Of a stretch of 64,000 nt of DNA, positions 28,570 through 45,243 are shown piece after piece. Source of the DNA: Thiovibrio frasassiensis (lineage in GTDB: Bacteria; Desulfobacterota; Desulfobulbia; Desulfobulbales; Desulfurivibrionaceae); contig NZ_JAPHEH010000001.1 of NCBI RefSeq assembly GCF_029607905.1, positions 1,455,530 through 1,519,529 of the forward strand, in the 5' to 3' direction. The translations under genes and the position numbers were made by a program. The notes beneath the pieces are model-generated. The model was not told the origin of the DNA. It saw only the letters and a program-made list of their open reading frames with translations, and searched no databases. Position 1 is the stretch's first letter. The number at the start of each line of letters is the position of its first letter.

Positions 28570-29046
28570 GTGGTTGAAGGGAGTGTGAAGAATCCAGTCT
28601 GTCGTTTCCGCAGTCGCTCCGAGCATGTCCTCGACGCGAAAGGCAGGCTGAATATCGCGACCAGGTTCCGCGAGTCCTTGCGCAATCAGGGCGATGAACG
28701 GCTCATGGTCATTCCCTGGCACAACTGCATTCGGGCCTACCCGCTGCCGCAGTGGGAAGAGCTGGAGGCGGCCCTTTTGGCGCAAGGCCAGAAAAGCCCT
28801 GAAACAGTCAAGTTGATTCGGTACATGATCGGCGGCGCAGAGGAATGCGCCCTGGACAAGCAGGGGAGAATACTGCTTCCTGCAACCTTGCGGGAAGATT
28901 GCGGCATCAAGAAGGAAATCGTAGCGAACGGCATGATTACCTATTTTGAAATCTGGGATAAGGAAGTTTGGGCGGCTGAAAACAAACCGACCGCCCAGAA
29001 TTTCCAGAATTTCGAGCAGGTTCTTCAGGAATTGGGGCTGTTCTGA
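28570..29046 (+). CDS. mraZ: Transcriptional regulator MraZ
   Basis: First gene of the dcw cluster; a 158-residue AbrB-fold DNA-binding protein that forms a ring and represses its own operon. The duplicated fold is visible: SEHVLDAKGRLNIATRFRESL in the first half and EECALDKQGRILLPATLREDCG in the second. The start is a GTG at 28570, just after the operator boxes. The ending LQELGLF is longer than in minimal MraZ but normal for this group. Confidence 0.93.
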   Translation: MVEGSVKNPVCRFRSRSEHVLDAKGRLNIATRFRESLRNQGDERLMVIPWHNCIRAYPLPQWEELEAALLAQGQKSPETVKLIRYMIGGAEECALDKQGRILLPATLREDCGIKKEIVANGMITYFEIWDKEVWAAENKPTAQNFQNFEQVLQELGLF

Positions 29047-29052
29047 TCCGGT

Positions 29053-29940
29053 ATGCAGCCATCTCATCTCCCGGTCATGCTCGAGGAAGTGGTCACCTGT
29101 CTGGCCCCGAAGGATGGAGGTCTGTATGTTGACGGCAATCTGGGGTTGGGTGGCCATACGGAAGGAATTCTTGAGGCCTGCGGTCCCACCGGGCAGGTTG
29201 TGGGGTTTGACTGGGATGCTGCGGCTCTGACCCTGGCACAGGAACGGCTGGCCCGCTTTGCAGGCCGTGTTCGCTTTGTGCATGAAAATTTCACCTCGAT
29301 AAAGGAGACCCTGATGGAGCTTGGCATTGGCACAATTGATGGCCTGCTGCTCGATCTGGGTCTTTCTTCGTTGCAGCTGGACGGAAGTGGTCGCGGTTTC
29401 AGTTTTAAAGGCAGCGAGCCGCTTGATATGCGGATGGACCAGCGTCAGGCCACCACGGCGGCCGAGTTGGTCAACGAGGCCTCCGAGGAAGAGCTGGCCG
29501 ACATTTTTTTCTACTATGGCGAAGAGCGCCAGGCGAGAAGGATCGCCGAGCAAATTGTCGCAGAGCGTCGGAAAGAGAAGATTGTTACCACCGATCAGCT
29601 TGTCGCTCTAGTGGCGCATGCCATTCCCAAGCGTTTCCATCCCCCCAAAATTCATGTGGCCACCAAGGTGTTTCAGGCGTTGCGCATCGCCGTAAACCGG
29701 GAGCTTGACAGTCTTGAGCAGATACTGGCCGATGGCGCTACCCTGCTTGCGCCCGGGGCCAGATTTTGCGTCATCTCCTTCCATTCCCTGGAAGATCGGT
29801 TGGTGAAACAGGCCTTTCGCGAAAATCCCCTCCTCGAGGTCGTGACCGCCAAGCCCATTATCCCCAGTCGTGCTGAATGCGTGCGTAATCCCCGAGCCAG
29901 AAGTGCCAAGCTGCGGGTTGCCGCACGAGGAAGAACCTGA
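29053..29940 (+). CDS. rsmH: 16S rRNA (cytosine-1402-N4) methyltransferase RsmH (MraW)
   Basis: SAM-dependent methyltransferase for C1402 of 16S rRNA, the normal second gene of dcw clusters. 295 residues. Family signatures are HLPVMLEEVVTCL at the N-terminus, VDGNLGLGGHTEGIL (SAM site), LLLDLGLSSLQLD and FCVISFHSLEDRLVK near the C-terminus. It lies 6 bases after mraZ and 1 base before ftsL. Confidence 0.96.
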   Translation: MQPSHLPVMLEEVVTCLAPKDGGLYVDGNLGLGGHTEGILEACGPTGQVVGFDWDAAALTLAQERLARFAGRVRFVHENFTSIKETLMELGIGTIDGLLLDLGLSSLQLDGSGRGFSFKGSEPLDMRMDQRQATTAAELVNEASEEELADIFFYYGEERQARRIAEQIVAERRKEKIVTTDQLVALVAHAIPKRFHPPKIHVATKVFQALRIAVNRELDSLEQILADGATLLAPGARFCVISFHSLEDRLVKQAFRENPLLEVVTAKPIIPSRAECVRNPRARSAKLRVAARGRT

Positions 29941-29941
29941 G

Positions 29942-30286
29942 ATGCGGGATTATGCGAATAAATACTCCGGCGGGGGTAGCAAAAGGCAACATGTAACCGG
30001 GCGCCGGGGCAACGGTTCGGATCGGCAGGTGCCTTTCAAAATTATAGGGGTGGTGGCGGTTGTCGCCATGTTGTTGGGGGTCGCCAGCAGCCTCTGGTTT
30101 GGCGTGGCTTTGCAAGACAACCTTGGCCGACTCGCGAAAAACAAACAGGAAGGAACCGAACTCATGGCTGCCAATGCGGCGCTCTCCGCGGAAAAGGAAG
30201 CGCTGCTGCAGCAGGGGAAGATAGAAGCTGCGGCGGCAAGGCTGGGATTGTTCCCGCCGTCTGACAAGCAGAAGAGAAGGCCATAG
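29942..30286 (+). CDS. ftsL: Cell division protein FtsL-like
   Basis: A 114-residue single-pass membrane protein. A basic cytoplasmic N-terminus is followed by one transmembrane helix (VVAVVAMLLGVASSLWFGV) and a periplasmic coiled-coil-like segment (ELMAANAALSAEKEALLQQGKIEAAAARLG). Identification rests on size, topology and position between rsmH and ftsI; FtsL sequences are poorly conserved. The ATG at 29942 follows GAGGAAG and is 1 base after the rsmH stop. In other bacteria FtsL bridges FtsQ/FtsB and activates FtsWI. Confidence 0.8.
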   Translation: MRDYANKYSGGGSKRQHVTGRRGNGSDRQVPFKIIGVVAVVAMLLGVASSLWFGVALQDNLGRLAKNKQEGTELMAANAALSAEKEALLQQGKIEAAAARLGLFPPSDKQKRRP

Positions 30287-30294
30287 GCCCCGGG

Positions 30295-32295
30295 ATGAAG
30301 AAACGGGCAATGGAGGGGAAAGACCGAAAACCGGCCATGGTGGGCGGTTTTTTTCTCTTGTTGGCCCTGGTCTTTGTCGCGGTGGCCATTAAAAGTCAGT
30401 TTTTTGAGGGAAGCGGACAACCGGAGCAGAGCGAAGGGCCAAAGGACGAACAGGCCAGCGTCGTACGGGGCGGCGGGAGAAGAAATATCTATGATCGGAA
30501 CTTCATGGAACTGGCCGTGAGTTTTCAGCGGAGTTCTCTCTATGCTCGCCCCTTGGAGCTTGAAGCGCCCGAGGAAGTTGCCCGTGAGGTTGCAAAAATT
30601 CTTGGACTGGATGAGAAAAATATTCTCTCGGCCCTGAAGGGGGAAAGAAGTTTTGCCTGGTTGGGCAGGGATCTTTCCCGCGAGAAAGCGGTGAAAATCG
30701 CGGATCTCAACCTGAAGGGGGTCTACCGCATCAACCAGGTGCAGCGGTTTTACCCGGGAAATCAGCTTGGCGCCCATGTCATCGGTTTTATTAAGGATGA
30801 ACAGGGGTTGGCCGGGGTCGAGTTTTACTATGACAGTGTCCTGCGGGGCGGCGGCGTATACGACCAAAGACTTGCGGCGGCAGGGGTGAGCCGGAAAATC
30901 GCCGAGGGGAGTGACAGCGCCAGCCTTATCCTGACTCTCGATATTCATCTCCAGAATGTTCTTGAGCAAAAGCTGAAAACTCTGGTGCAAAATACCGGGG
31001 CCAAGGGTGGGGTGGCGGTGCTCATGGTCCCGGATACCGGGGAGATTATCGGCTTGGCAAGTTTGCCGGATTATGACCCCAATCGCTTTTGGGAATTCCG
31101 GGCTGAGGCGCGCAGAAATAGGGCCATTGAAGATGTCCTTGACCTTGGCGCCATGGACCGGCTCTTCCAGGCGGCGGCGGTCATGGAGAAGAGGATTGGT
31201 CAGAAAAAAAACGTGCTGGCGGAAGACGAGCCGGCTCCCGAGATGGAAGCGGTCCAGCGGAGTGTCTGGAACGAGGTGCAGGGCGGCAGGTATATTTCTC
31301 TGGAAGGGGTTGGCTTTGGCCAGACCGTGTTGGGGCGTGATGAGTATAACGCCTTTGCGGACAGAATCGGTCTGACCGTCAAGGGGGAAGTGGATTTGCC
31401 CGAGGCGCTGTTTACCGTAAAGGATATCCCTGGAGGGGTAACGAACAAGAAGGACGAAGGGGTTGGTGAGGAAAGCTCTCCGGATCCGAGCAAAACCATG
31501 GTCCCGCATCCCGATAAAGATTCTGTCGCAACAGCAACCCCTCTGGCGTTGCTGTCGGCATTTTGCCGGTTGATCAACGGAGGCCAGGTGATGACACCCC
31601 ATGTGCTCCGCGCTGTCTGGCAGGATGAGCAGGTGTGGGATGTCCCGGTCCGGCAGGGAATAGGCGAGTTTGCTGTGCCGGCCCAGGTAAGCGCGAATAT
31701 GCGCAACGAAATGAAAAAGGCAGCAGGGGCCGGGCGGGGGAATTTTCTCATCGAATCGCTGCTGCAAAAAAATAGTGCGGTATCAAGCGAGGCGCAGTCA
31801 GCCGGGGACGGGGGCGAAAATACGGTTGCAGGGAAGGCGGTGATGGAAAGTATTCTCTTGGGGATGGCCCCGTTGGAACATCCGGAAATAGCCATGATCG
31901 TTGTCCTTGAGGACGCCCGTCTCGACCTGCAGTCCAGATCGCCGGTTCGGGATCTGGCCGAAGAAATGATGCCCCAGGCGAGAGCGGCGTTGCAGAATCA
32001 GGTAAAGCCGCCCAGCGCCAAGGAGTTGGCGGTGCGGGAAGGCGGCTATTACAAAAAAATGGAAATGATTCAGGCGAAATCCACCCTGCCCGCTGCCTTG
32101 GGCCAGGGTCCGCAGGGGCTTGTCATGCCGGATGTTCGGGGCTTAAGCGGGCGCAAGGCGATGCAGATTTTGCAGCCTTATGGGGTAAGATTGCAGATTA
32201 CCGGCTCAGGACAGGTGGCAAGTCAATATCCGCTTGCAGGCTCAGCCTTGCGGGGTGTGGAAGAGTGTGTGCTGAATCTTAAGGCGATGCAGTAA
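30295..32295 (+). CDS. ftsI: FtsI/PBP3-like protein with all transpeptidase motifs lost
   Basis: A 666-residue protein in the ftsI position with a class B PBP layout: transmembrane helix near residues 17-35, dimerisation region (NIYDRN... to RFYPGNQLGAHVIGF), a transpeptidase-like domain (about 225-560) and a C-terminal PASTA domain (VMPDVRGLSGRKAMQIL). Three motifs are changed. The SxxK site reads A286-M-D-R289, in a context that otherwise aligns (RRNRAIEDVLDLG before, LFQAAAVME after). The SxN site near 335-339 reads SLEGV. The KTG site reads K514-A-V-M. It should therefore not acylate substrate or beta-lactams and is best viewed as a structural pseudoenzyme. The frame is intact over 2 kb, so it is not simply a pseudogene. 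Confidence 0.88.
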   Translation: MKKRAMEGKDRKPAMVGGFFLLLALVFVAVAIKSQFFEGSGQPEQSEGPKDEQASVVRGGGRRNIYDRNFMELAVSFQRSSLYARPLELEAPEEVAREVAKILGLDEKNILSALKGERSFAWLGRDLSREKAVKIADLNLKGVYRINQVQRFYPGNQLGAHVIGFIKDEQGLAGVEFYYDSVLRGGGVYDQRLAAAGVSRKIAEGSDSASLILTLDIHLQNVLEQKLKTLVQNTGAKGGVAVLMVPDTGEIIGLASLPDYDPNRFWEFRAEARRNRAIEDVLDLGAMDRLFQAAAVMEKRIGQKKNVLAEDEPAPEMEAVQRSVWNEVQGGRYISLEGVGFGQTVLGRDEYNAFADRIGLTVKGEVDLPEALFTVKDIPGGVTNKKDEGVGEESSPDPSKTMVPHPDKDSVATATPLALLSAFCRLINGGQVMTPHVLRAVWQDEQVWDVPVRQGIGEFAVPAQVSANMRNEMKKAAGAGRGNFLIESLLQKNSAVSSEAQSAGDGGENTVAGKAVMESILLGMAPLEHPEIAMIVVLEDARLDLQSRSPVRDLAEEMMPQARAALQNQVKPPSAKELAVREGGYYKKMEMIQAKSTLPAALGQGPQGLVMPDVRGLSGRKAMQILQPYGVRLQITGSGQVASQYPLAGSALRGVEECVLNLKAMQ

Positions 32296-35468: not shown

Positions 35469-36548
35469 ATGCTCTACCATTTTCTCTATCCGCTCCATGC
35501 CTATTTCAGCGCGCTGAATGTTTTTCGCTATATCACCTTTCGCGCCATCGGAGCAACGCTGACCGCTTTTCTGATTCTGTTGCTGGTTGGCAACAGATTC
35601 ATCAAAGCGCTGCAGAAAAACCAGATCGGTCAGGTGGTGCGGGACGACGGCCCGGCAAGCCACTTCAGCAAGCGGGGAGTGCCCACCATGGGAGGGGTGC
35701 TCATTCTTTTTGCCGTAACCGTGACCACCCTGCTCTGGGTCGATCTGGCAAACAGTTTTGTCTGGATCATCCTCGGGGTGACCCTCTGGTTCGGAGCAAT
35801 CGGCGCCTATGACGACTACTGCAAGATTAAAAAACAGAACAGCAAGGGGTTGAGTGCCCGGGGGAAGATATTCTGGCAGATCCTCGGCGCCTCCATAGCC
35901 GGGTTGCTCATCTATTTTGATCCGAATTTTGACGGACACCTGAGCTTTCCCTTTTTAAAGAATATACAGCCCGACCTGGGCACCTATTATGTGTTGTTCG
36001 CCATTCTTGTGGTGGTCGGCGCCTCGAACGCGGTGAATCTCACCGATGGCCTCGATGGCTTGGCAACCGGGCCTACGGTGGTGACGAGCAGTGTGTATTT
36101 GCTCTTTTCCTACCTGGCCGGACATGCCGGTTTGGCGGCATATCTGCAAATCCCCTATGTGCCTGGGGCAGGCGAGGTTGCCATCTTCTGCGGCGCCCTG
36201 GTTGGCGCCAGCCTTGGCTTTCTCTGGTTCAATGCCTACCCGGCCCAGATCTTCATGGGAGATGTGGGCTCCCTCTCCATGGGGGCAGCGCTCGGCATGG
36301 TGGCGATCATCATCAAGCAGGAGATGCTCCTCTGTATTGTCGGGGGAGTTTTTGTCATGGAGGCGGTTTCGGTCATTCTCCAGGTGGGTTTTTTCAAGAT
36401 GACCGGCGGCAAGAGGATCTTTCTCATGGCCCCGTTTCATCATCATTTTGAAAAGAAGGGGTGGACAGAGCCAAAGGTTGTGGTCCGATTCTGGATCATC
36501 TCCATCGTCCTGGGCTTGACTGCCTTGGCAACCTTGAAGCTGCGTTAG
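35469..36548 (+). CDS. mraY: Phospho-MurNAc-pentapeptide transferase MraY
   Basis: Integral membrane enzyme that makes lipid I from UDP-MurNAc-pentapeptide and undecaprenyl phosphate. 359 residues with ten predicted helices. Family motifs: GVPTMGGVLIL, GAYDDYCKIKKQNSKGLSARGK (Asp-rich active site), NAVNLTDGLDGLATGP, FMGDVGSLSMGA and the His-rich loop MAPFHHHFEKKGW. It is 12 bases after murF. Confidence 0.97.
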   Translation: MLYHFLYPLHAYFSALNVFRYITFRAIGATLTAFLILLLVGNRFIKALQKNQIGQVVRDDGPASHFSKRGVPTMGGVLILFAVTVTTLLWVDLANSFVWIILGVTLWFGAIGAYDDYCKIKKQNSKGLSARGKIFWQILGASIAGLLIYFDPNFDGHLSFPFLKNIQPDLGTYYVLFAILVVVGASNAVNLTDGLDGLATGPTVVTSSVYLLFSYLAGHAGLAAYLQIPYVPGAGEVAIFCGALVGASLGFLWFNAYPAQIFMGDVGSLSMGAALGMVAIIIKQEMLLCIVGGVFVMEAVSVILQVGFFKMTGGKRIFLMAPFHHHFEKKGWTEPKVVVRFWIISIVLGLTALATLKLR

Positions 36549-36569: not shown

Positions 36570-37997
36570 ATGATGCACTGGAATCTCAAGGAAATACTGA
36601 AACCCGGAGCCCATGTAGTGGTGGTGGGCTTGGGCAAGTCAGGTGTTTCCGCGGTGCGATTCCTGCTCAAGCTTGGCGTGAAAATATCGGTTTCAGAGGG
36701 TGGCCGTCAGGAGAACCTTGAAGGAGACTTGGTTCGGTGGCTGAAGGAGAAAAGAGTTTTTGTAGAAACTGGCGGCCATACCTCTGAGCTTTTAACTTCG
36801 GCGGACTGTATTTTGGTAAGCCCTGGCGTACCGCTGGGCATCGCACCCCTTGCAGCGGCAAGGAAAAAAGGGATCCCTGTTTTGGGCGAGCTGGCTCTGG
36901 CCAAGGATTTTCTCAAGGTGCCGGTGGTGGCGGTGACCGGTACCAACGGCAAAAGCACGGTGACGAGCCTGATCGGCGATCTCCTCACCGGCAGCGGGAA
37001 AAAGGTTTTTGTCGGCGGCAATATCGGGGTTCCCCTGGCCGAGTATCTGGCCGGCCCCCAGGAGTGTGAGGCGGTGGTCCTTGAGGTGAGCAGCTTCCAG
37101 CTGGACAGCGGTGGTGAGTTTCGGCCCCAGGTGGGGGTGTTGCTCAATATCAGCCCGGACCATTTGGATCGCTACGATTCTTACGAAGCGTATATCGATT
37201 CGAAAATGTCGCTCTTTAAAAACCAGGCGCCCGGAGATGTCTCGGTCTTGAATGGCGACGATTCAGCAATCGCTGCGTGGTTGGCTGCAGAGGGTGCACA
37301 GAAAAGCCCTTGGCCGATTCGAGGAGAAATCAGGCAATACCGGAGTGGATGTACGAGCGGGATAGCCGCGTGCCTTAAGGGAACCAAGGTGCTGCTTGCT
37401 TCCGCAGAAGCTCCGGACAAGTTGGCTGAAGAATACGAGTTGTCGGGTACCCACCTTGCCCAGGCACCAAATACGGAAAATGCCATGGCGGCGATCCTTG
37501 CCGCCCGGGCCATGGGGTGCAGCCCGATAGCCATCCAGAACAGCCTGGCTGGTTTTACCCCCCTGCCGCACCGGTTGGCCCTGGTGGCGGAGATTGCGGG
37601 TGTCACCTATTATGACGACTCCAAGGGGACCAATGTCGGCGCTGTCTATTCCGCCCTGGCAGGCATGAAGCAACCGGTGGTCCTCATCGCCGGCGGCCGG
37701 GAGAAGGGTGGCGGCTACGAGATGCTGATTCCGTTGGTGCAGGAAAAGGTCCGAGGGATGGTTTTAATCGGCGAGGCACGGGAGGCAATGGCCAAGGCTT
37801 TTGCTCAGAGCACCCGGATTGATTTTGCCGAATCAATGGATGAGGCGGTACGAAAGGCGGGAAGTATGGCGGAGAAGGGAGATGCGGTTCTTTTATCTCC
37901 GGCCTGTGCAAGTTTTGACATGTTCAGAAGTTACAGCCATCGGGGCGAGATGTTTGCCCAGGCGGTAGGCAGGTTGGGGCGGCAGGACGCACAATAG
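36570..37997 (+). CDS. murD: UDP-MurNAc-L-Ala:D-Glu ligase MurD
   Basis: Adds D-glutamate to UDP-MurNAc-L-Ala. 475 residues. Motifs: VVVGLGKSGVSAVRFLLK at the N-terminus, ATP loop VTGTNGKSTVTSLIGDLL, EVSSFQLD, NISPDHLDRY and DDSKGTNVGAVYSAL, ending with the LLSPACASFDMF... segment typical of MurD. Two adjacent ATGs at 36570 and 36573 are both possible. In most dcw clusters ftsW follows; here it does not. Confidence 0.96.
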   Translation: MMHWNLKEILKPGAHVVVVGLGKSGVSAVRFLLKLGVKISVSEGGRQENLEGDLVRWLKEKRVFVETGGHTSELLTSADCILVSPGVPLGIAPLAAARKKGIPVLGELALAKDFLKVPVVAVTGTNGKSTVTSLIGDLLTGSGKKVFVGGNIGVPLAEYLAGPQECEAVVLEVSSFQLDSGGEFRPQVGVLLNISPDHLDRYDSYEAYIDSKMSLFKNQAPGDVSVLNGDDSAIAAWLAAEGAQKSPWPIRGEIRQYRSGCTSGIAACLKGTKVLLASAEAPDKLAEEYELSGTHLAQAPNTENAMAAILAARAMGCSPIAIQNSLAGFTPLPHRLALVAEIAGVTYYDDSKGTNVGAVYSALAGMKQPVVLIAGGREKGGGYEMLIPLVQEKVRGMVLIGEAREAMAKAFAQSTRIDFAESMDEAVRKAGSMAEKGDAVLLSPACASFDMFRSYSHRGEMFAQAVGRLGRQDAQ

Positions 37998-38076
37998 GAG
38001 TGCTTGACGGAAAAAGTCCGGACGGTTTTGTGTCTGAGGGGGCACGGCTGGGGCGGCAAAAGGCGAGGACGGGATA

Positions 38077-38268
38077 ATGCAGACAGTGTGCTGTGTGTGC
38101 CAGAAAACCAAGAGCCAAACAGGATGGATACAGGAGCAGCTGGTGAGTAAGGGAAGTCGGGTTTCCCATGGATATTGCCCGGACTGTTTTGATCGGACCA
38201 TGGAGCGGGCCCAAGGGTGGTTGTTGGCGAGAAGTGCGGGAAATCGGGGCTTGGCCCTGGGACGGTAA
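38077..38268 (+). CDS. Small Cys4 zinc-ribbon-like protein in the ftsW position
   Basis: A 63-residue ORF with a GAGGA ribosome site 7 bases upstream, in the 291-base gap between murD and murG. It has two CxxC pairs (CCVCQKTK and HGYCPDCFDR) about 30 residues apart. The pattern resembles the C-terminal ICxxCKKIR...SHGICPEC tail found on many sensor and receiver proteins of delta-proteobacteria, here standing alone. Metal binding is inferred from the Cys spacing; the function is unknown. It occupies the slot where ftsW normally sits. Confidence 0.65.
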   Translation: MQTVCCVCQKTKSQTGWIQEQLVSKGSRVSHGYCPDCFDRTMERAQGWLLARSAGNRGLALGR

Positions 38269-38288
38269 GGAATAAGAGAGGAATGTTG

Positions 38289-39365
38289 ATGCGGATGATC
38301 GTGACCGGAGGAGGAACAGGAGGGCATCTTTTTCCCGGCATTGCCGTGGCCGAAGAGATGTTGCGCCGTTTTCCCGAGGGCAAGATCCTTTTTGTCAGCA
38401 CGGATCGCGCCATTGACAATAAGGCCCTGGCCGGACGTTCCTTTGCGAAAAAGGCGATTGCCTGCCTGCCCATAAAGGGAAAGTCTCTCTGGGGAACCAT
38501 CAGGAGCGTGGCCCAGCTGCCCATCAGCCTGTGGCAGGCCTTGCGGATTGTGGGTGGATTCAAACCCCAGCTTGTTTTAGGGGTGGGCGGGTATGTGACT
38601 GGGCCGGTAGTGTTGGCGGCACACCTCATGGGAGTGAAAACCTGTATCCACGAGCAGAATTCTATTCCGGGCATGGCCAACAGGATGCTTGGAAAAATCG
38701 TTGACCAGGTATATATTTCCATCCCCGGCTCCGAGGATTTTTTCCCCAAGGGAAAGAGTGTGCTGACCGGGAATCCGGTGCGGGCTGAGTTGCTGGCAAC
38801 GGCTGCTCAGAAGAAGGAGCAGGGGGCAGAAAAAACGGTCCTGGTTTTGGGGGGCAGTCAGGGTGCGCACCGGGTCAATGCCTTGATGGTGGAGGCCTTA
38901 ACCGCGCACCAGTCTGGTGAGTCCGTTCGGGTGCACCACCAGACGGGAAACAGCGACGAAGCATGGGTGCGCAAGGCGTACGAAGAGGCAGGGGTTCCAG
39001 CCCAGGTCTCTGCCTTTATCACCGAGATGGCTGTGGCGTACCGGGACGCGGATCTTGTAGTCTCCCGGGCCGGGGCAACAACCCTGGCGGAGCTGGCGGT
39101 ACTGGGCAAGCCGGCTATTTTGATTCCCTATCCGTATGCCGCGGATGACCACCAGACGACCAACGCGGCGTATCTGGTACGGGGCGGGGCCGCCGTGATG
39201 TTTCAAGAGCGGGATCTCGATGGCTCAAAGCTGCGCGAGACGATACTGGGTCTGCTGGACGATGGCTCTCGGTTGCAGGGGATGGCAACGCAGATGCGGC
39301 AATACGGTCGGCCGGAAGCGACCGACGCCATTGTGGAAAAAAGCATGGAGTTGTTGGCCGCCTGA
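38289..39365 (+). CDS. murG: UDP-GlcNAc:lipid I GlcNAc transferase MurG
   Basis: Peripheral inner-membrane glycosyltransferase that converts lipid I to lipid II. 358 residues from the ATG at 38289, which has AGAGGA about 7 bases ahead; nearby in-frame ATGs at 38283 and 38295 are alternatives. Motifs: MIVTGGGTGGHLFPGIAVAEE, LGVGGYVTGPVVLAAHLMG, HEQNSIPGMANR, VLGGSQGAHRVN and the UDP-GlcNAc site VVSRAGATTLAELAVLGKP. Lipid II made here must be polymerised by enzymes encoded elsewhere, since no SEDS gene is present. Confidence 0.96.
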   Translation: MRMIVTGGGTGGHLFPGIAVAEEMLRRFPEGKILFVSTDRAIDNKALAGRSFAKKAIACLPIKGKSLWGTIRSVAQLPISLWQALRIVGGFKPQLVLGVGGYVTGPVVLAAHLMGVKTCIHEQNSIPGMANRMLGKIVDQVYISIPGSEDFFPKGKSVLTGNPVRAELLATAAQKKEQGAEKTVLVLGGSQGAHRVNALMVEALTAHQSGESVRVHHQTGNSDEAWVRKAYEEAGVPAQVSAFITEMAVAYRDADLVVSRAGATTLAELAVLGKPAILIPYPYAADDHQTTNAAYLVRGGAAVMFQERDLDGSKLRETILGLLDDGSRLQGMATQMRQYGRPEATDAIVEKSMELLAA

Positions 39366-40784: not shown

Positions 40785-41772
40785 AGCCTGCAACCTGCAT
40801 GGCAGGCCAGACGGGGTGGTTCTGCCTGTAACGGGACCGAGGAAGATGCAAAAAGGGATGGACAAGGGGTGGCCGGAGCAACTGCGTACCCTCTGGCCAG
40901 GCGAGATCGAATGGGACAGTCCCATGGCCCGTTGGTGCACCCTGCAGGTGGGCGGCCCGGCCAAGGCCATCGCCATGCCGGCCAGCCGGGAAGAATTGCA
41001 AAGCCTTATCGCGCTGTTGGCCCGACTCGGGGTAAGTTGGCGGGTTATCGGCCGGGGCAGCAACCTCCTTGTCTCGGATGCGGGCTATGATGGGGTCATT
41101 GTAATGCTGGGCCGGAAGTTCGCGGCCATTTCCCAGCACCCCGGGGAAAAAGCCGGGGAGAGACGGGTGCGGGTTGAGGCAGGATGCAGCCTGATGAAGT
41201 TGGTCAACTGGTGTGCTCGCCAGGGATTGCAGGGTTTGGAATTTGCCGCAGGCATTCCGGGCTCGGTGGGTGGCGCAGTGGTTATGAATGCCGGGGCCTG
41301 GGGCATGGAGATGGGTGAGACGCTCTTCTCGGTTTCCTTCTTGCGCGAGTCCGGGGAGATTGTGGACAGAGAAAAAGAGGCTCTGCTCTTTTCGTACCGC
41401 CATTTGGAGACAGAGGGGATGATTGTTGTGGCGGCGGAGTTTTTATTGCAGGCTGGGGATCGGCAGCTCATTGAGAGGAAATGTGCTCAGTTGATGCGGG
41501 AGCGGAAAGAAAAGCAGCCGCAGGGTTTGGCCAATGCCGGGTCGTTTTTTAAGAACCCCGCAGGGTTGCCTGCCGCCGGCAAGCTTATTCAAGACGCTGG
41601 ACTCAAAGGGGTTTGCCTCGGTGGCGCGCAAGTTTCCGAGGTGCATGCGAATTTTCTCGTGAATACCGGGACTGCCACACCCCAGGATTTTCTCGGTTTG
41701 ATGCGGCTTGTTCAGGAAAAGGTTGCAGAGCGGTTCGGTGTCTGGCTGGAGCCGGAAGTACATATTCTTTAA
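40771..41772 (+). CDS. murB: UDP-N-acetylenolpyruvoylglucosamine reductase MurB
   Basis: FAD enzyme that reduces UDP-GlcNAc-enolpyruvate to UDP-MurNAc. 333 residues from the ATG at 40771, which has GGAG 7 bases ahead inside murC. Later ATGs at 40846 and 40858 would remove a non-conserved leader. Motifs: [54 protein letters not shown], the proton donor Ser in NAGSFFKNP and the C-terminal [11 protein letters not shown] with the catalytic Glu. The ddl gene often found after murB is absent. Confidence 0.95.
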
Positions 41773-41804
41773 GCGGTTTGGGCAAAAAAGGGGCAAAAAC
41801 GATT

Positions 41805-42623
41805 TTGCGAAAGGGAAAGCCCATACAGCAGCGCTACGGGAGCAGCAAGAAAAGCCGCACCCTGGACCTGAAGAAAAAACTGGCCATTTTGGTGGTTGGT
41901 TTGCTGCTGCTGGTAGCAGGTTTTGCTGTGGTTGGCTTTATCGTTTATAAAGCCATGGGGCGGGCGGATTTTTTCCAGATCACCGCCACCAATATTCAGG
42001 GCTGCCGGAGGACCACTAAGAACCTCATTCTGGAAATGAGCGGAGTGGATGTGTACAGCAATCTCCTGGCGCTCGATATCAAGAGGGTGAAGTCCGGGAT
42101 TGAGGCCCATGAATGGGTCGAATCGGTGGAGATCGAAAGGGACTGGCCCAACCGTTTGACCATTGTTGTTAAGGAACGACTGCCGGTGGCCATTGCCAGC
42201 CTTGATAACGGGCTGTTCTATCTTGATCAGAAAGGAGTGGCCTTTGCCAAGGTATTGCCGCCCGAGGACATGGATTATCCCATCATCTCCGGGTTGAAAA
42301 GGGATGAATGGCCGCGGAACCTCAAGGATTCACCATTGGGGGAGGCCCTGCAGCTCATTAAATATGCGGGCCAGGGGAGTTCCATTCTGCCAAAGCAGAA
42401 TATCTCTCAGTTGCATGTGGACGGGGATGAAAATATCATCCTCTATCTGGTGGACCGGCCGTTTCCGATCCATCTGGGAGCAGGCAATGTCGGGACCAAA
42501 TATTACTGGCTGACCAAGGTGCTGTACAAATTGTACAAGAGCAAGGAATTTGACAAAGCCGCCTATGTGAGAATGGACTATGGGCGGAACCAAGTTCTGG
42601 TAGGTTTTGACGAAGAAGGATGA
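41805..42623 (+). CDS. ftsQ: Cell division protein FtsQ
   Basis: Bitopic division protein of 272 residues: basic N-terminus, one transmembrane helix (LAILVVGLLLLVAGFAVVGFIVY), then the POTRA domain (ITATNIQGCRRTTKNLILEMSGVDVYSNLLALDIKRVKSGIEAH.. in part) and the FtsQ beta domain with VKERLPVAIA. The frame is open from 41613, but the sequence before about 41800 overlaps murB and is not FtsQ-like, so the TTG at 41805 is chosen; this start is uncertain. In other species FtsQ scaffolds FtsL/FtsB and hence FtsWI. Confidence 0.88.
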   Translation: MRKGKPIQQRYGSSKKSRTLDLKKKLAILVVGLLLLVAGFAVVGFIVYKAMGRADFFQITATNIQGCRRTTKNLILEMSGVDVYSNLLALDIKRVKSGIEAHEWVESVEIERDWPNRLTIVVKERLPVAIASLDNGLFYLDQKGVAFAKVLPPEDMDYPIISGLKRDEWPRNLKDSPLGEALQLIKYAGQGSSILPKQNISQLHVDGDENIILYLVDRPFPIHLGAGNVGTKYYWLTKVLYKLYKSKEFDKAAYVRMDYGRNQVLVGFDEEG

Positions 42624-42773: not shown

Positions 42774-44006
42774 ATGGCACATGAAGAACGTGGCGATCTG
42801 ATTGTCGGGCTGGATATCGGCACCACCAAGATATGCGTGGTGGTTGGGGAGGTCCATGATAACCGCCTTGATATTATCGGCATTGGCCGGCACCCCTCGG
42901 TGGGCTTACGGCGCGGGGTGGTGGTCAATATCGAGAGCACCGTCCATTCCATCAGGCAGGCAGTGGAAGAGGCGGAGCGGATGGCGGGCTGCGAGATCGG
43001 CTCCGTGTATGTGGGCATCGCCGGCAGTCACATCAAGAGCTTCAACAGCCACGGTCTGATCGCCATCAAGCATAACGAGATCCGGCAGGACGACATCGAC
43101 AGGGTGGTGGATGCGGCCCGGGCCGTACCCATCCCGCCGGACCAGGAAGTGATCCATGTGCTCCCGCAGGAGTTCATGGTGGACGGACAGGCGGATATCC
43201 AGGATCCCCTCGGCATGACCGGCGTCCGTCTCGAATCCGATGTGCATATCGTGACCGGTTCGGCAACCGCGGTGCACAACATTGTCAAATGTTGCAACCG
43301 GGCCGGACTTGAGGTGACGGATGTGGTCCTCGAACCCTTGGCCTCGGCAGGCGCGGTCCTGACCCGGGAAGAAATGGAATTGGGGGTGGGGTTGCTGGAC
43401 ATCGGCGGCGGCACTGCCGATTTGGCGATCTTTGCCGATGGGACGATCAAGCATACCTTTGTTCTTGGGCTGGGCGGACAGAATCTCACCAACGATCTCT
43501 CCATAGGGCTGCGTACTCCGCAGAAAGAGGCGGAAAGGCTGAAGGAGGAGTTCGGGAGTGCCTTGGCCTCGCTGATCGACAAGGATCAGGTCATCGAGGT
43601 GCCCAGTGTGGGGGGGAGAAAGAATCGGAAGCTTTCCCGGCGGGTCATGGGAGAGATTCTCGAGCCCCGGGTTGAGGAGATGCTTACCCTCATCAATCAG
43701 GAACTGTTGGATTCCAAGTACAAGGAAATGGTCAACGCCGGTATGGTGCTGACCGGCGGGTCCTGCCTGCTGGCCAACATGGAAGAGCTGGCGGAACAGA
43801 TCTTTGATCTGCCGGTGCGCATCGGCCGGCCGGAAAATATCGGCGGGGTGGTGGATGTGGTGGGGACACCGCAGTGGGCAACCGGCGTTGGTCTGGTTGT
43901 CTACGGTATGAAGAATGGACCGGGGGAGAGATTCAAACGGCCCAAGGGTGGAATAGTAGGGAGAGTCACCGGTCGGATGAAAGACTGGTTTAAGGGAATA
44001 GTATAA
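42774..44006 (+). CDS. ftsA: Cell division protein FtsA
   Basis: Actin-like membrane tether of FtsZ. 410 residues. Motifs: LIVGLDIGTTKICVVVGEV (phosphate 1), the 1C domain region with GCEIGSVYVGIAGSH, LLDIGGGTADLAIFADG (phosphate 2), GMVLTGGSCLLANMEELA (adenosine) and the amphipathic C-terminal membrane helix (GRMKDWFKGIV). It starts 150 bases after ftsQ with AAAGGTG upstream. Confidence 0.96.
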   Translation: MAHEERGDLIVGLDIGTTKICVVVGEVHDNRLDIIGIGRHPSVGLRRGVVVNIESTVHSIRQAVEEAERMAGCEIGSVYVGIAGSHIKSFNSHGLIAIKHNEIRQDDIDRVVDAARAVPIPPDQEVIHVLPQEFMVDGQADIQDPLGMTGVRLESDVHIVTGSATAVHNIVKCCNRAGLEVTDVVLEPLASAGAVLTREEMELGVGLLDIGGGTADLAIFADGTIKHTFVLGLGGQNLTNDLSIGLRTPQKEAERLKEEFGSALASLIDKDQVIEVPSVGGRKNRKLSRRVMGEILEPRVEEMLTLINQELLDSKYKEMVNAGMVLTGGSCLLANMEELAEQIFDLPVRIGRPENIGGVVDVVGTPQWATGVGLVVYGMKNGPGERFKRPKGGIVGRVTGRMKDWFKGIV

Positions 44007-44073: not shown

Positions 44074-45243
44074 ATGACTTTTAAATTCGCGGAAACAGAG
44101 TCACGGGCAAAGATCAAGGTTTTTGGCGTTGGCGGCGGTGGGGGCAATGCGGTCAACACCATGGTGGACAGCAAGATCCTCGGGGTGGAGTTCATCGCCG
44201 GCAACACCGATATCCAGGACTTGGAGAAATCCAAGGCCGATGTCCAGGTGCAGCTTGGCAAGAGTGTCGCCAAGGGACTGGGGGCCGGAGCCAACCCTGA
44301 AAGAGGCAGGGAGGCGGCGGAGGAGTCCATCGATGAAATCAGAAAGCAGTTGAAGGACTGCGACATGGTTTTTATCACCGCCGGCTTGGGTGGCGGAACC
44401 GGGACCGGGGCCGCGCCGGTTATCGCGAGAATTGCCAAGGAACTTGGGGCCCTCACCGTGGCGGTCGTTACCAAGCCCTTTGCTTTCGAGGGCAGAGCCC
44501 GGATGAAAAATGCCGAGCTTGGCTGGAAGAATCTCAAAGAACATGTGGACACCATCATCACCATTCCCAATGACCGCTTGATTTCCATGAGCCAGAAGGG
44601 GACCCGCTTCATCGACGGGATGAAGATGGCGGACGATGTTCTGGTGCAGGCGGTGAAAGGCATTACCGATCTGATCAACCTGCCCGGCTATATCAACCCG
44701 GATTTTGCCGATGTGCGTGCCATCATGAACGAGATGGGGCAGGCGCTCATGGGTTCAGGCTATGGGGTGGGTGAAAACCGGGCCGTTGAGGCGGTGAACA
44801 TGGCGATCAACAGCCCGCTTTTGCAGGACATCAGTATCGATGGCGCCAAGGGGGTTTTGGTCAATATCTCGGCCAGCCGGGAGACCTTGACCATGCCGGA
44901 GGTGACCGAGGCAACCACCAAGATCTACCAGGAGGTGCATGAGGACGCCAATATTATTCTGGGCGTGATCTTTGACGAGAATCTGGGAGACGAGTTGCAG
45001 GTAACGGTTATTGCCACCGGTATCCGCGATACCGTGGAAGAGATCGAGGAGTTGCCGGACAAGGTGCAGCTCATGCCGAAAAAACGGGAGCCCGCCGCAC
45101 AGCAGCTGCCGTTCAGAAAAGGGGAGCAGGGCATGGCTGCGGGCCGCGCTGTGGCCAACGGTATGCAGAGATCCTATGCCAACAATATTTTAAACGAGCA
45201 GGACTACGACCGGCCGACCTTTTTGCGCCGGAATGAAAGCTGA
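44074..45243 (+). CDS. ftsZ: Cell division GTPase FtsZ
   Basis: Tubulin homologue that forms the Z ring. 389 residues. It has KVFGVGGGGGNAVNTM, the tubulin signature GGGTGTG near residue 107, the T7 loop NPDFADVRAIMNEMGQALMG, and a C-terminal peptide DRPTFLRRNES that binds FtsA. It closes the dcw cluster. Its normal sequence shows that the organism divides with a Z ring even though its FtsI is degenerate and ftsW is missing here. Confidence 0.98.
   Translation: MTFKFAETESRAKIKVFGVGGGGGNAVNTMVDSKILGVEFIAGNTDIQDLEKSKADVQVQLGKSVAKGLGAGANPERGREAAEESIDEIRKQLKDCDMVFITAGLGGGTGTGAAPVIARIAKELGALTVAVVTKPFAFEGRARMKNAELGWKNLKEHVDTIITIPNDRLISMSQKGTRFIDGMKMADDVLVQAVKGITDLINLPGYINPDFADVRAIMNEMGQALMGSGYGVGENRAVEAVNMAINSPLLQDISIDGAKGVLVNISASRETLTMPEVTEATTKIYQEVHEDANIILGVIFDENLGDELQVTVIATGIRDTVEEIEELPDKVQLMPKKREPAAQQLPFRKGEQGMAAGRAVANGMQRSYANNILNEQDYDRPTFLRRNES

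Follow-up and report, generated by a model that had tools for sequence, protein, structure and literature searches.

How does a bacterium build its division septum when ftsW is missing from its dcw cluster and the FtsI encoded there has lost its active site? This question is raised by the 64-kb window analyzed here (the term covers the whole stretch of DNA). Passages of a study of C. difficile (PMC10693644) state that septal wall synthesis has been held to require FtsW and FtsI in all bacteria, and C. difficile itself is the experimentally shown exception that we found. The genes of the cluster in the window follow the order mraZ, rsmH, a short gene in the ftsL position, ftsI, murE, murF, mraY, murD, murG, murC, murB, ftsQ, ftsA, and ftsZ. 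All features located below are on the plus strand. mraZ (28570 to 29046), at the start of the cluster, and the retained ftsA (42774 to 44006) and ftsZ (44074 to 45243) were named from their place and conservation, and the short protein in the ftsL position (29870 to 30286), which has no trusted Pfam match, from its place only. murD (36570 to 37997) and murG (38283 to 39365) match TIGR01087 and TIGR01133, respectively. ftsQ (41613 to 42623) carries POTRA_1 and FtsQ_DivIB_C, and its true start is probably internal to the ORF. mraY (35469 to 36548) served as the query for locating the cluster in other genomes. A first-pass annotation of this DNA had described a cluster complete from mraZ to ftsZ except for ftsW, and no other SEDS gene in the window. 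Both statements were borne out, as the full gene series was identified with ftsW alone missing, and no SEDS gene lies within the window. The usual ftsW site is the interval from the end of murD at 37997 to the start of murG at 38283 or 38289 (37998 to 38282 for the former start). It contains no SEDS gene, and at approximately 285 to 291 nt it is too small for a SEDS protein. An assembly gap was rejected as the cause of the missing ftsW, because the interval is intact in one contig and the same pattern is found in single-contig genomes.

The genome (2.84 Mb, three contigs, 95% complete) contains one SEDS gene, located outside the window (C1:406228-407277), and no second SEDS was detected even at E values of up to 10. 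The encoded protein scores 427.6 bits against the RodA model TIGR02210 (cutoff, 336.7) and 297.4 bits against the NCBIfam FtsW model, which is below the cutoff of 337.5. In a SEDS tree that splits FtsW from RodA with full support, it falls on the RodA side, as do the lone SEDS proteins of all sampled FtsW-less lineages. Its scores, its place in the tree, and its location outside dcw identify it, at the level of sequence, as RodA, the elongation enzyme. The gene directly follows that of PBP2 (mrdA), with mreB-, mreC-, and mreD-like genes (named by sequence) upstream, and rodA also adjoins a PBP2 gene in 19 of 19 other loci fetched from the order, in locus L101, and in most single-SEDS relatives. 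The RodA/FtsW scores are 411 to 438/298 to 324 bits in six FtsW-less lineages and 409 to 445/288 to 313 bits for three RodA proteins of genomes or families with FtsW. Besides the dcw FtsI, PF00905 is matched in this genome by three class A PBPs and by the PBP2 whose gene adjoins rodA. Thus the genome-wide search that the first-pass annotation had proposed, for a SEDS protein next to an active class B PBP, returned RodA, with PBP2 as its neighbor, and no active class B PBP other than PBP2.

The FtsI homolog (30295 to 32295; 666 amino acids) lies between rsmH/ftsL and murE, the location of an ftsI, and matches PF03717 (40.8 bits) and PF00905 (50.1 bits) above the cutoff of each. The first-pass annotation had called it degenerate, and this proved correct: GAMDR stands at the site of GSVFK in PBP2, with the catalytic Ser and Lys replaced, and neither SxN nor KTG is present, whereas the FtsI of FtsW-containing relatives has all three motifs. 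The three regions of this dead FtsI have diverged to different degrees. Among 18 sequences of the order, the strongly conserved pedestal (PBP_dimer, PF03717, residues 62 to 185; 30478 to 30849) shows 39% identity, the degenerate transpeptidase part (30862 to 32094) 22%, and the conserved PASTA domain (PF03793, residues 610 to 652; 32122 to 32250) 46%. The corresponding values for ten active FtsI proteins of more distant relatives are 37%, 45%, and 34%, with region borders that were taken from the FtsI in the window and are less exact for this set. The dN/dS ratios against two congeners are 0.034 and 0.057 for the pedestal, 0.053 and 0.079 for PASTA, and 0.208 and 0.147 for the transpeptidase part, versus 0.065 and 0.078 for MraY (the murF row for L014 was left out of this comparison). 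To judge from these ratios, purifying selection constrains the pedestal and PASTA as tightly as MraY, and the transpeptidase part has drifted, which suggests a protein maintained by selection, not as an enzyme, and no decaying pseudogene. The predicted structure of the dead FtsI (the window together with loci L180 and L182) had a mean pLDDT of 40 and was left unused.

The absence extends across the order, which is probably the Desulfobulbales; the named loci L181 (Desulfocapsa sp.) and L182 point to this, and a published survey of Desulfobulbaceae genomes (PMC7873302) is in agreement. Among 197 genomes from 15 families, one SEDS match was found in 184, none in 8, and more than one in 5. The multiple matches correspond to one split gene in G052 and to contig-edge or broken pieces in G044, G089, and G186; G095, whose assembly carries 8% contamination, has two full-length genes. 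One genome without a match, G058, is 99% complete. A divergent or relocated FtsW was considered and rejected, as 15 genomes of the order searched at E values of up to 10 show one SEDS each; the extra matches score 13.2 bits or weaker, and the control genome G430 yields its two SEDS proteins. The first-pass annotation had also proposed a comparison of gene order across the order. None of the 61 dcw loci (60 genomes plus the one studied here) contains a SEDS gene, with murD and murG both in view in 58, and none of the 58 loci with a readable FtsI has the catalytic Ser motif, SxN, or KTG (L049, with a split gene, was read partially). A scan of 64 dcw loci of the order, which took in L121, L180, and L182 (Desulfobulbus sp.), with FtsI in view in approximately 61, detected no single ORF that combines SxxK with KTG. 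In three loci of family f6 (L038, L039, and L040), murD and murG were not found after mraY in a 17-kb stretch, and the cluster looks split. Insertions in the dcw region after mraY are described in passages of a paper on cable bacteria (PMC7873302).

Outside the order, the loss of ftsW and the loss of the FtsI active site go together. The phylum set comprised 394 genomes, 373 of them outside the order, and among the latter at least two SEDS matches were found in approximately 288, one in approximately 83, and none in 2. The dcw cluster was fetched for 35 of these genomes. FtsI is active in all 12 relatives whose dcw cluster includes a SEDS gene. Another 22 relatives lack such a gene; the FtsI region is in view in 21 of them, and in none of these is FtsI active. 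L117, in which the locus is cut before murG and FtsI is active, was excluded. Therefore neither a dcw ftsW with a dead dcw FtsI nor, among the 21 readable loci, an active dcw FtsI without a dcw ftsW was seen in any relative. This supports the earlier claim that the two partners of the septal synthase were lost or moved as a pair. The two partners were lost, not moved, because this genome has neither a second SEDS nor a second active class B PBP. The one complication comes from genus g184 (family f61), two genomes of which, G358 and G460, have outside dcw a second, divergent SEDS gene adjacent to one for a class B PBP that looks active. These genes (L260, 3786 to 6976; L261, 237 to 3421) lie near Ser/Thr kinase-like genes and, in L261, near genes for FHA- and phosphatase-like proteins, all named by eye. 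The FtsI of FtsW-less relatives shortens stepwise. Outside f61 and f33 it measures 515 to 643 amino acids in most cases, 440 and 457 in two, and 340 in one. In clade B (f61 and f33), FtsI measures 248 to 356 amino acids, and by eye a membrane segment, a linker, and a PASTA-like end remain. As a named control beyond the phylum, 80 loci were read. murD and murG are both present in 69, of which 66 also have a SEDS gene (the others are L180, L182, and L256). KTG is found in 58 of 60 loci with a SEDS gene and a listed FtsI; the exceptions are L193 and L238, and in L238 a 17-amino-acid ORF had been picked as FtsI.

The losses were mapped on species trees of the mur genes and rsmH rooted on Escherichia coli. 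The tree with all lineages shows three changes in the presence of ftsW. A tree of 25 rows shows two, and there a single clade of all FtsW-less rows is rejected (p-AU, 0.003), which speaks against a single loss. In an unrooted tree made with a simpler model and without E. coli, f61 and f33, which are on long branches, join f96, f72, and f37 (support, 91), a topology that would allow fewer losses. At least two independent losses of ftsW are thus likely, a count that holds in the rooted trees and that the simpler tree does not separate.

Since ftsW is lost and FtsI lacks its active site, the septal wall must be built in another way. A GT51 enzyme is kept in 60 of 60 genomes tested, and exactly one, of class A PBP length, is found in 13 of 14 FtsW-less relatives tested (families f27, f38, f55, f62, f68, f72, f73, f81, f85, f96, f101, and f109). 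In four single-contig FtsW-less relatives (G281, G416, G361, and G223), one class A PBP and PBP2 account for the strong transpeptidases. Together with the GT51 protein in all 60 genomes tested, this leaves few candidates, either a class A PBP or RodA-PBP2. One of the class A PBPs of the genome studied here (L010, 2862 to 5711; 950 amino acids) has weaker GT51 and transpeptidase matches, and proteins of similar size are found in several genomes of the order. Many genomes of the order, G002, G051, G062, G111, and G118 among them, encode an extra GT51 protein of approximately 1,100 amino acids with a weak transpeptidase match, which this genome does not have.

We favor, at a probability of roughly 0.48, a divisome of FtsZ, FtsA, and FtsQ without a dedicated septal synthase, in which septal peptidoglycan would come from a synthase whose gene lies elsewhere than in dcw. 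The most likely candidate is a class A PBP, an enzyme that both polymerizes and cross-links. The dead FtsI may serve as a noncatalytic, membrane-anchored adaptor, its transmembrane, pedestal, and PASTA parts linking FtsQ and FtsA to this synthase. The class A PBP is preferred because of the precedent of C. difficile, for which passages of two studies describe the class A PBP1 as the septal synthase (PMC10693644) and a class B PBP that acts noncatalytically in complex with PBP1 (PMC12539705). The PCB_OB domain is a point against the class A reading. It is found above the cutoff in at least 154 of the 394 genomes of the phylum, with no FtsW-less lineage among the matches listed (G416, with an E value of 2.2e-5, is near the cutoff). 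In the FtsW-less genomes read, the main class A PBPs are without it, but so are those of many genomes with FtsW, and its loss appears to be a weak correlate of the loss of ftsW.

RodA-PBP2 follows close behind the class A PBP as a candidate. The elongation pair may do double duty: it would be brought to the Z ring for division, and the dead FtsI would be the adaptor that ties it to the divisome. We hold this reading as a serious, if somewhat less probable, alternative. RodA is the sole SEDS and is kept throughout, never being clearly lost where ftsW is lost, and several families with FtsW retain FtsW only (RodA is lost in f28, f90, and f107), which shows that loss of RodA can occur when FtsW is present. 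The pedestal of a class B PBP faces its SEDS partner, and that of the dead FtsI is as constrained as MraY. Both the persistence of RodA and the retained pedestal would favor RodA over a class A PBP. On the other hand, the RodA scores of FtsW-less lineages show no shift toward FtsW, and clade B is left with short remnants of FtsI. A further, rather unlikely possibility is a combination in which RodA, freed from PBP2 at the septum, would be activated by the pedestal of the dead FtsI, with PBP2 or a class A PBP providing the cross-links and with at least two conversions of the dcw FtsI to a nonenzyme in this phylum, each accompanying a loss of ftsW. If so, a class B PBP would have been turned into a pure activating subunit.

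That the dead FtsI has no function and is a relic in slow decay is very improbable. The divergence of the transpeptidase domain, down to 22% identity, and the loss of most of the protein in clade B would fit such decay, but a long open frame persists in nearly all of the 58 loci of the order (L049 is split), and the overall dN/dS is 0.13 to 0.16 and far lower in the pedestal and PASTA. Finally, a hidden pair of septal SEDS and class B PBP, overlooked because of divergence, assembly gaps, or mobile DNA, has in its favor the 8 genomes of the order without any SEDS match and the second SEDS of G358 and G460, but it is largely refuted by the low-stringency search of 15 genomes and by a pattern consistent over 15 families, and we give it hardly any weight.

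With respect to gene content, the FtsW-less bacteria resemble C. difficile: there is no FtsW/FtsI pair, one RodA-PBP2 pair, and a class A PBP. According to passages of PMC10693644 and PMC12539705, vegetative division in C. difficile likewise involves no canonical FtsW/FtsI pair, and its single RodA-PBP2 pair is essential. The septal role of the class A PBP is shown in C. difficile and inferred here, and the noncatalytic division role of a class B PBP is proposed here for the dead FtsI. In contrast, the dcw cluster of C. difficile keeps an active SpoVE and SpoVD for sporulation, whereas the cluster described here has no SEDS and a dead class B PBP. C. difficile lacks homologs of FtsA and FtsN, and here ftsA and ftsQ are kept in cells that are probably nonsporulating diderms. 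Members of the Planctomycetota and Chlamydiota are also reported to have lost division genes widely held to be essential, but these lineages are reportedly marked by division without FtsZ (PMC12283558), unlike the bacteria studied here, which keep FtsZ, FtsA, and FtsQ.

The absence of ftsW in four Desulfobulbaceae genomes is already in print, with FtsI taken as functional there. Passages of Geerlings et al. 2021 (PMC7873302) report that ftsW, zipA, and ftsN are absent from two Electrothrix and two Desulfobulbus genomes, place the genes for PBP2 and RodA in a single cluster with the mre genes, and count FtsI as present with a role in septal synthesis. These passages deal with four genomes and do not mention a lost active site of FtsI, class A PBPs, or a wider distribution. 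In searches of the open-access PMC literature, we found no prior report of the dead FtsI, the extent across the order, or the wider co-loss. Our results thus describe a whole order and several relatives in which FtsZ, FtsA, and FtsQ are kept, FtsW is gone, and FtsI is apparently maintained without its active site. This offers a natural test of the roles of FtsI beyond catalysis and of the capacity of a class A PBP, or of RodA, to make a septum in such cells. It also bears on the division of cable bacteria, in which FtsI has been assumed to be the septum maker, and it predicts that beta-lactams directed at FtsI will not filament these bacteria.

The ftsW slot itself contains a conserved ORF of 63 amino acids (38077 to 38268, plus strand) with two CxxC pairs. 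This zinc-ribbon-like protein has no match in Pfam or NCBIfam, and we take it to be similar to the small ribbons at the termini of some signaling proteins. It recurs in 27 of the 61 loci of the order, and dN/dS ratios of 0.07 and 0.16 against two congeners indicate that purifying selection acts on it. In locus L021, it is present in tandem copies.
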